In this document: positions 27,959 to 32,425 of the stretch, one piece after another
Position numbering within the stretch: the first letter of the stretch is position 1
How the letters are laid out: each line of letters opens with the position of its first letter
NCBI RefSeq assembly: GCF_013055795.1
Contig: NZ_JABETO010000001.1
Location: 62,001-126,000, forward strand
DNA length: 64,000 nucleotides
Source: Streptomyces sp. I05A-00742
GTDB taxonomy: Bacteria; Actinomycetota; Actinomycetes; Streptomycetales; Streptomycetaceae
Reading direction: 5' to 3'
Notes under the pieces: model-generated
Told to the model about the DNA's origin: nothing
Database searches by the model: none
What the model saw: only the letters and a program-made list of their open reading frames with translations
Translations under genes and position numbers: made by a program

Positions 27959-28031
27959 GGGGCTATAGCTCAGTTGGTAGAGCGCCTGCATGGCATGCAG
28001 GAGGTCAGGAGTTCAATTCTCCTTAGCTCCA
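27959..28031 (+). tRNA. tRNA-Ala (anticodon GGC), copy 1
   Basis: A full cloverleaf folds from 73 bases: acceptor GGGGCTA/TAGCTCC, D stem GCTC/GAGC, anticodon stem CCTGC/GCAGG with loop ATGGCAT (anticodon GGC), T stem AGGAG/CTCCT with loop TTCAATT. Discriminator is A and CCA is not encoded. It reads GCC and GCU, GCC being abundant in this DNA. Copy 2 at 31344-31416 is identical. Confidence 0.97.
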
Positions 28032-31343: not shown

Positions 31344-31416
31344 GGGGCTATAGCTCAGTTGGTAGAGCGCCTGCATGGCATGCAGGAGGTCAGGAGTTCA
31401 ATTCTCCTTAGCTCCA
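31344..31416 (+). tRNA. tRNA-Ala (anticodon GGC), copy 2
   Basis: Base-for-base identical to 27959-28031, including the three bases after the discriminator (CAG). The same cloverleaf and GGC anticodon apply. The two copies are 3,385 bases apart in the same orientation, with different flanking sequence. Confidence 0.97.
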
Positions 31417-31454: not shown

Positions 31455-31620
31455 TTCGTCGTGCGCTCTTCCCGCGTCTTCTTCGTCGCGATCTCGCCCG
31501 TTCTTGCATGTCCATGACCCTTCCTTGTCCGCTTGTTGGCGAACGTATGCCCCCTACATGAACAGTTCACCGCAAGAGTGACGTTCCGTGCAGGCGACCT
31601 TTCGTATCGCAGGGGGTTTG

Positions 31621-32269
31621 ATGAGATCACGCCGTTCCGGAGCGCGCGCGGGCCTGGCCCTGGCCACCGCGCTGCCCCTGGTGGCGGGGGTGCCGGCGCT
31701 CGGGGCGCCCACTGCCGGCGCCGACATACGTCAAGGACGGCCGCACGTACCACGCGCCGTCCACGACCGCCTCCGTCCCCGCCTCCCTGGACGGCGCCGT
31801 CCTTACCGTCGTGGGCCTCAACGACGCCCCGCGGCGGGCCCACCGCGACGAGGCCCTGCCCGGCCCGAGCGCCGCCTTCGCCAACTCCGGTCTCTTCTCC
31901 ACCGGGATTGATTCGCAGTGCTCCGGCGTTTACGCCGGGGGTGAAGCGAATCTGAGAGTGGTGGCGCGGAGCGGCACAGCGTCCGGTAGGGACGGCCAGA
32001 ATCCTCGTCCTTCAGGGCGAGGAGCATGTCAAGGCACCGCCGCCTACCACGACGTCACCGACCACCCGCTCGGCAAGGGCCGTGGCATCGGCGACGTGCG
32101 CGTCGACTTCGTCAACGGCGTCGACGCCAAGGACGGCACCACGGTGTCGCTGCGCGGCCTGGGCGACGACGGGTCGCTCTCCGCGACCGTGGGGTACGAC
32201 GACGTGACCGGCGTCGGCTCGCCGGCCCGCGACTACGTCACGTCGTACGCACCCGGCCACCGCCGCTGA
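31621..32269 (+). pseudogene. Remnant of a secreted S53 (sedolisin-type) protease gene
   Basis: The pieces are: a signal peptide in frame 1 (MRSRRSGARAGLALATALPL, ending GADI near 31729); propeptide-like sequence in another frame from about 31724 (TYVKDGRTYHAPSTTASVPA, VLTVVGLNDAPRR, PGPSAAFANSGLFST); a ~120-bp IS605 right-end remnant; then the C-terminal end of an S53 domain (AAYHDVTDHPLGKGRG, IGDVRVDFVNGVDA, GYDDVTGVGSP). The catalytic Glu/Asp and Ser regions are gone. So a frame change after the signal and a large internal deletion destroyed the gene. The family call rests on remembered Streptomyces S53 sequences. Confidence 0.75.
31913..32032 (+). mobile_element. IS200/IS605-family right-end remnant (omega-RNA/tnpB 3' scar)
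   Basis: The right edge is typical of IS605-type elements: a subterminal hairpin CCTCGTCC-TTCA-GGGCGAGG (32003-32022) followed by GAGCATG and a terminal TCAA (32029-32032). Further left is a second hairpin CCGGCG-TTTA-CGCCGG (31923-31938), as in the tnpB 3' end/omega-RNA part of Streptomyces elements I remember. A TTGAT (31908-31912), the insertion motif of ISDra2-like elements, precedes the left side. No tnpA or tnpB remains. The left boundary is uncertain. Confidence 0.7.
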
Positions 32270-32386: not shown

Positions 32387-32425
32387 ATGCGTGCCGTACG
32401 CCTCCTGCTTAGCGAGCCGCGCTGA
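32387..32425 (+). CDS. leuS leader peptide (12 aa)
   Basis: ATG CGT GCC GTA CGC then CTC CTG CTT AGC GAG CCG CGC TGA encodes MRAVRLLLSEPR with three successive Leu codons. TAACCT (32375-32380), a possible -10, lies seven bases before the ATG, so the leader would be leaderless or nearly so. An intrinsic terminator follows 36 bases past the stop and leuS lies 150 bases past it. This is the layout of Leu-codon attenuation. Confidence 0.8.
   Translation: MRAVRLLLSEPR

Follow-up and report, generated by a model that had tools for sequence, protein, structure and literature searches.

The window analysed here is a stretch of 64,000 nucleotides from Streptomyces sp. I05A-00742 (contig NZ_JABETO010000001.1, positions 62,001 to 126,000). 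It contains the two remnants of a peptidase pseudogene, which are separated by a sequence of 130 bp carrying the left and right ends of an IS200/IS605 family. The following features were assigned, with positions referring to the window:

31620–31902, + strand: 5′ remnant of an S53 (pro-kumamolisin type) peptidase pseudogene, with a deletion between 31726 and 31727 (orthologue alignment)
31899–31902, + strand: CCAC, left flank tetranucleotide, the family consensus target being CTAC (left flanks of relatives, orthologues)
31903–32032, + strand: 130 bp, very probably an ends-only IS200/IS605 derivative with the left end fused to the right end (alignment to full copies)
31903–31973, + strand: left end, with a hairpin at 31910–31952 and an internal TTGAT at 31908–31912 (blastn, DNA fold)
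31917–31920, + strand: AGTG, proposed left guide, 5′ foot of the inner left-end hairpin (fold position, analogy to IS608)
31961–32032, + strand: right end, 59–72 nt depending on the fusion point within the overlap (alignment; 86.7 bits with a right-end model that has the window as a training row)
31965–31973, + strand: fusion zone CGCGGAGCG, reading CGCGGAGCG in left ends and CGCGTAGCG in right ends (overlap of left-end and right-end matches)
31999–32002, + strand: GAAT, proposed right guide, the same as the right guide of IS608 (by analogy)
32003–32022, + strand: subterminal right-end hairpin CCTCGTCC-TTCA-GGGCGAGG, arms 32003–32010 and 32015–32022
32029–32032, + strand: TCAA, putative right cleavage site and element end (27 of 27 family right ends)
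32033–32269, + strand: 3′ remnant of the S53 peptidase pseudogene (91% amino acid identity to Streptomyces huiliensis)

That the protease gene is dead, as an earlier note on this DNA had stated, is borne out by comparison with the closest named syntenic orthologue, from S. huiliensis (L091), which has an open frame of 661 aa. Relative to L091, two stretches are missing from the window: 365 bp, a length not divisible by 3, between 31726 and 31727, and a further 1084 bp between 31902 and 32033. Syntenic S53-type peptidase genes are located between a tRNA gene and a gene read as leuS in S. huiliensis and S. caatingaensis (L092), and both loci show ∼90% DNA identity to the window downstream. The intact orthologue L091 matches Pro-kuma_activ and Peptidase_S8. 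The two window fragments, tested alone, gave no Pfam match, yet they align to orthologues.

Of 109 loci other than that of the window, 17 were examined as orthologues and 16 of these were scored (L173 was left out; L098 and L175 may be one species). In all 16, the bases homologous to 31902 and 32033 are separated by 1075–1087 bp. Immediately 5′ of the base homologous to 32033, nine orthologues have CTAC, six GTAC and one CTTC ([C/G]TAC in 15 of 16); ahead of the left border, CCAC is present in 13, CGTC in one, and CGAC in the two closest. Among 16 more distant homologues, TAC is found at the right border in nine, one codon off in four, and is absent in three (L068, L072, L080). These sequences agree with a canonical insertion at the right border and with a second site, of lower quality, at the left border. 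Replacement of 1084 bp by the 130-bp element leaves the frame unchanged (954 = 3 × 318). The deletion between 31726 and 31727 amounts to 365–380 bp in 12 scorable orthologues, never a multiple of 3; it causes a frameshift, and no element is present there.

A query of 141 bases across the site matched 47 of 199 genus genomes, the own genome counted (E ≤ 1e-3), so that, judged from sequence, a chance origin of the similarity is excluded. The matches fall mainly into two classes, one from query position 2 to ∼54–88 (window 31901 on) and one from ∼62 to 133–141 (window 31961–32040), frequently located 0.2–1.9 kb apart within one genome. The two classes correspond to the termini, left and right, of longer elements, and the element in the window therefore extends from 31903 to 32032 and has both ends. 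In blastn alignments to relatives, 31901–31983 aligns with left ends (75–88% identity over up to 87 nt) and 31961–32032 with right ends of full elements. No match was obtained when the exact 30-nt end pattern was searched in genome contigs. The 22-nt hairpin pattern occurs in five stretches of viral contigs, two of which encode a TnpB homologue.

Both ends of the window copy carry subterminal imperfect palindromes, as seen in alignment and fold. Reading and script confirmed the motifs named in the earlier note, namely CCTCGTCC at 32003–32010, the loop TTCA, GGGCGAGG at 32015–32022, TCAA at 32029–32032 and TTGAT at 31908–31912. An IS200/IS605 origin, as proposed there, holds since both ends align to full family elements. 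The non-autonomous derivative of ∼120 bp without tnpA or tnpB that it considered is also supported, with a measured length of 130 bp, and genus relatives do carry full IS605 copies with the right end of the window. The designation as an orphan right end has to be given up, because 31901–31983 aligns to the left ends of full elements. Nor is TTGAT the left target, being an internal part of the left end, where most other copies read TTCAT and L209 has TTGAT; the first base of the element is 31903, preceded by CCAC.

Complete copies of the parent family in Streptomyces comprise either 1459–1514 bp with tnpB or 1890–1934 bp with tnpB plus a tnpA sequence on the opposite strand, which is continuous in L204 and L205 but disrupted in L201–L203. 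The TnpA of L205 matches Y1_Tnp (PF01797) with 147.7 bits, and the TnpB of L214 matches OrfB_IS605 and Cas12f1-like_TNB. TnpB identity within the family is 79–92%. The tnpB stop codon is located ∼60 nt before the element end in full relatives, placing the right end just 3′ of tnpB. Short derivatives also occur in other members of the genus (L207 with 225 bp and L218 with 214 bp).

Left flanks of 25 distinct left ends read CTAC in 20 cases (two of them after a one-base shift), CCAC in two, and CTAT, CTGC and CTGT in one each. All 27 family right ends terminate with TCAA, none having been excluded for missing it, and TCAA is invariant in an alignment of 27 rows (the window plus 26 of the 27 right ends). 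Relatives of L213 and L214 have exact empty sites without target duplication, which supports insertion 3′ of CTAC without such a duplication. The family thus shows a fixed left target, TCAA and no duplication; the window copy itself has CCAC. The hairpins are common to the family: in the same 27 rows, 95.7% of the cells in the two right-end stems pair, compared to 88.4% in shuffles, and the terminal stem shows two-sided changes in five of its eight pairs. The upstream right-end hairpin of the window has kept six of seven pairs.

In the window fold, the right hairpin is immediately preceded on its 5′ side by GAAT, and the inner left hairpin by AGTG. IS608, whose left and right pairs are TTAC/AAAG and TCAA/GAAT, shares with this family the subterminal hairpins, the right cleavage site TCAA with guide GAAT, and a 4-nt target that is kept in the left flank (PMC5934647). 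It differs in its left pair, TTAC/AAAG versus CTAC and the proposed AGTG, and the window copy is without genes (PMC5934647). By analogy we infer that AGTG may guide CTAC in this family, and an IS608-like cleavage of the CTAC and TCAA ends by TnpA on single-stranded DNA is a putative family activity. ISDra2, whose TnpB works with an omega RNA (reRNA), resembles the full relatives in the position of the right end just 3′ of tnpB; its target is TTGAT rather than CTAC, and the window has about half a scaffold length and no tnpB (PMC8612924, PMC10097598).

The PATEs of Haloquadratum walsbyi, as far as described in the consulted sections of their report, come closer to the window copy: they are fused subterminal palindromes of an IS605-type element without an own ORF, show no target duplication, and have lost the core via a repeat common to both ends (PMC3119063). 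Likewise, the window copy consists of ends only, is too short for a transposase and has IS605-related palindromes. A many-copy expansion, which characterises only the 'homogeneous' PATEs, is not seen, the host assembly holding one copy. The window further differs in its bacterial host, its single copy, the lack of any sign of mobility, and an imperfect repeat of 9 bp compared to PATE fusion repeats of 22 and 19 bp; it resembles the terminal-only, degenerate kind of PATE (PMC3119063). A PATE-like sequence of Halanaerobium hydrogeniformans is likewise an ends-only IS605 derivative among decaying copies; unlike for the window, no host deletion is mentioned in the consulted sections of that report (PMC7290912).

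Family left and right ends are present in the 130-bp element, tnpA and tnpB are absent, and it occupies the place of 1084 bp of the S53 peptidase gene. We are highly confident that 31903–32032 derives from an IS605-type Streptomyces element targeting CTAC and is now decayed, non-autonomous and reduced to its ends (PATE-like); this confidence concerns its identity and not the route of the deletion. It is the sole match in the host assembly (E ≤ 1e-3; 105-contig draft), and a reading as a mobile MITE was rejected because of this single copy. No complete TnpA was found in the 105-contig draft assembly, and the only Y1_Tnp match in the own genome is a truncated remnant covering model positions 2–41 of 121. 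Since the genome is a draft of 105 contigs, a tnpA or a further copy may have been missed. The 130-bp element is probably inert by now, as the assembly yielded no complete TnpA and the guide-RNA scaffold has lost its upstream part. A truncated TnpA remnant (L010, own genome C95:93720-93839) lies near a tnpB with an open frame of 504 aa, and a right end with TCAA adjoins this tnpB.

The present arrangement would go back to an ancestral full element that inserted into the peptidase gene, 3′ of a CTAC. Its core would have been lost through the 9-bp imperfect repeat common to both ends, and the 1084 bp upstream would have disappeared separately, at the left terminus, before or after the loss of the core. 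The left-end and right-end matches overlap at 31961–31983, with the core CGCGGAGCG at 31965–31973, where most other right ends read CGCGTAGCG. Loss of the core through a repeat common to the ends is described for PATEs and the IS605-type element of Haloquadratum (PMC3119063).

The flanks of other copies bear on how the 1084 bp were lost. Contiguity of the flanks in relatives was assessed for 16 copies, 14 of them by joined-flank searches (four candidates scored per genome, 101 genomes) and, for part of these, by detailed reading, plus L212 and the window; L203 (degenerate left end) and L218 (left flank without usable match) were left out of the joined queries. Among the matches listed, six copies have contiguous flanks, six do not, and four gave no clear call (L204, L210, L201, L034). 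The flanks of L210 are 3.6 kb apart in G059, perhaps in a paralogue. Contiguity is exact for L213 and L214 and within three bases for L032. It is of low precision for L202 and L207, whose left flanks aligned partly or poorly, and for L211 it depends on one single-alignment match, the left flank being unrecovered in the detailed reading.

The non-contiguous copies are the window, L212, L023, L205, L208 and L209. At L212, 149–252 bp are missing compared to all seven relatives, in which the native left site reads CTAC (five), CTAT (one) or TTAC (one), and the native right site CTAC (three), TCAC (three) or CCAC (one). At L023, 312–315 bp are missing compared to two relatives and, by extrapolation, 327 bp compared to a third; the native left site is CTAC in all three and the native right site is CTAC in the two that are readable. 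Since in L240 this interval is bounded by a shared ACCCGCTAC, an ordinary repeat deletion is possible for L023. A CCAC flank had been considered as a marker of such deletions. This use is weakened by the CTAC of L023 and by the relatives of L212, where the CCAC probably arose later because five of seven natively have CTAC at the left site. For L205, the left flank is found in one relative and the right flank in two others, each natively ending with CTAC, and among the matches listed the two never occur together save for a weak match of 33 bases in L255; in our reading they belong to different genes. L208 (1459 bp, the tnpB-only size) has flanks that are opposite in orientation and about 2–13 kb apart in five relatives, suggesting an inversion between copies, with the left homology stopping 11–51 bases short of the junction. 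L209 is a weak case, for which the left site alone was found, natively CTAC.

The rearranged flanks of L205, at separate places, and of L208, inverted, suggest recombination among family copies. Accordingly placed copies would also explain the window: two copies in the same orientation at two sites, recombined into one, are in our view the most likely route to the 1084-bp deletion, held with about even confidence. Such an event is not directly visible, the host having only the one copy. At the left, the flank reads CCAC instead of CTAC (CGAC in the two closest orthologues), which would make it a poor site for a first insertion.

Next to recombination between copies, an event driven by a transposase or nuclease is possible. 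Its simplest form is a one-step deletion in which the AGTG-guided left end was transferred to the upstream CCAC; the left end having moved upstream while the right end stayed in place, the interval would therefore be lost. L212 and perhaps L023 would have arisen in the same way. The deletion border exactly at the left terminus agrees with this, as do the losses of 149–252 bp in L212 and 312–315 bp in L023 between CTAC-like native sites, where it seems unlikely that two insertions happened independently within 150–330 bp. Chemically, the reaction would be akin to the integration step with the left guide and the target, here in cis (PMC5934647). However, no precedent was seen in the literature searched, L023 allows an ordinary repeat deletion with the ACCCGCTAC of L240, part of the L212 interval is intergenic DNA that varies in length, and at the native right site of L212 three of seven relatives have TCAC and one of seven CCAC. 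In addition, the sample is small and L212 was picked for its CCAC. We thus hold the one-step deletion only tentatively. As a TnpB-driven variant, short-range re-copying followed by collapse of the copy pair is also possible.

An ordinary illegitimate deletion that ended at the left terminus by chance is improbable: the junction sequence permits a 2-bp AC microhomology and the same pseudogene has a second, element-free deletion (between 31726 and 31727), but the border coincides exactly with the element terminus in both the window and L212.

More generally, it is conceivable, if rather doubtful, that IS200/IS605 elements make clean host deletions between two of their own target tetranucleotides in cis, by left-end-only transposase transfer or by TnpB-driven re-copying and collapse, and that the peptidase deletion is a fossil of this process. 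No IS200/IS605 deletion bounded by two target sites was seen in the literature searched, including the consulted sections of PMC5934647, PMC3119063, PMC10097598, PMC8612924, PMC7290912 and PMC6006769. Some indels are described to start or end with a mobile element (PMC3119063). Comparison with intact orthologues places the remnant precisely at a deletion of host DNA that has a target-like site at either border, and if this pattern recurs, it would provide a route for peel-and-paste elements to delete neighbouring genes. Since the sample is small and L212 was picked for its CCAC, the pattern is a lead and not a rate. The element itself belongs to a known class of relics; what deserves a follow-up is the deletion pattern with its two targets.

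It had also been suggested that the right-end remnant might still function as an omega-RNA scaffold whose guide begins with GGCACCGCCGCC and which a TnpB from another locus could use. GAAT, TCAA and the terminal hairpin are indeed intact, the upstream hairpin retains six of seven pairs, and the host genome has three tnpB genes. Yet the window offers at most 59–72 nt of right end, compared to about 116–150 nt up to the right end for an omega-RNA scaffold, and further upstream only left-end and host DNA follow. The ISDra2 scaffold comprises 116 nt, and its 3′ part pairs with positions −106 to −102 and −85 to −80 (PMC10097598). When the window was aligned over 160 bases with 24 of the 27 right ends (L207, L218 and L034 were left out), 20 of these 24 had AAGACC at −139 to −134, one had it elsewhere and three lacked it; it is missing from the window. 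The resident TnpBs have diverged from the family TnpB, to which L007 is 45–49%, L008 27–30% and L009 25–28% identical, so that the best candidate in this draft genome is not a cognate one. With the family right-end covariance model, right ends beside two resident tnpB genes gave 38.2 and 28.6 bits, the window, itself a training row, 86.7 bits.

At the gathering thresholds of Rfam, the window matches only two tRNAs and no guide-RNA family. Below gathering, it matches sot0042 (21.5 bits, gathering 88), HgcC (17.4 bits, gathering 50) and RAGATH-10, and the full copies L214 and L209 give similar sot0042 and HgcC matches. The HgcC matches span the whole model and those to sot0042 are weak (window 31885–32045; L214 1605–1760); they might reflect a common RNA architecture of tnpB right ends. 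Since the guide-RNA region has lost its upstream block and retains 59–72 nt of right-end sequence at most, these comparisons make a functional omega RNA unlikely, and the scaffold proposed for a TnpB encoded elsewhere is very improbable. The case thereby sets right an interpretation in which a right-end hairpin was taken for an orphan scar of a guide RNA.

Two further observations concern the surroundings of the pseudogene. At 32387–32425 of the window, a possible leader peptide from ATG to TGA reads MRAVRLLLSEPR, with three consecutive Leu codons, and is followed by a hairpin and a T run ahead of the gene read as leuS; part of this stretch is conserved in relatives. Ribosome-mediated attenuation is a known mode of control for such an arrangement, and the leader peptide, hairpin and T run before the gene read as leuS look like a candidate for it. 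The two tRNA genes of the window (27959–28031 and 31344–31416) have equal Rfam scores and lie ∼3.4 kb apart. Both copies are identical over 76 bases, and several relatives likewise have two nearby copies.
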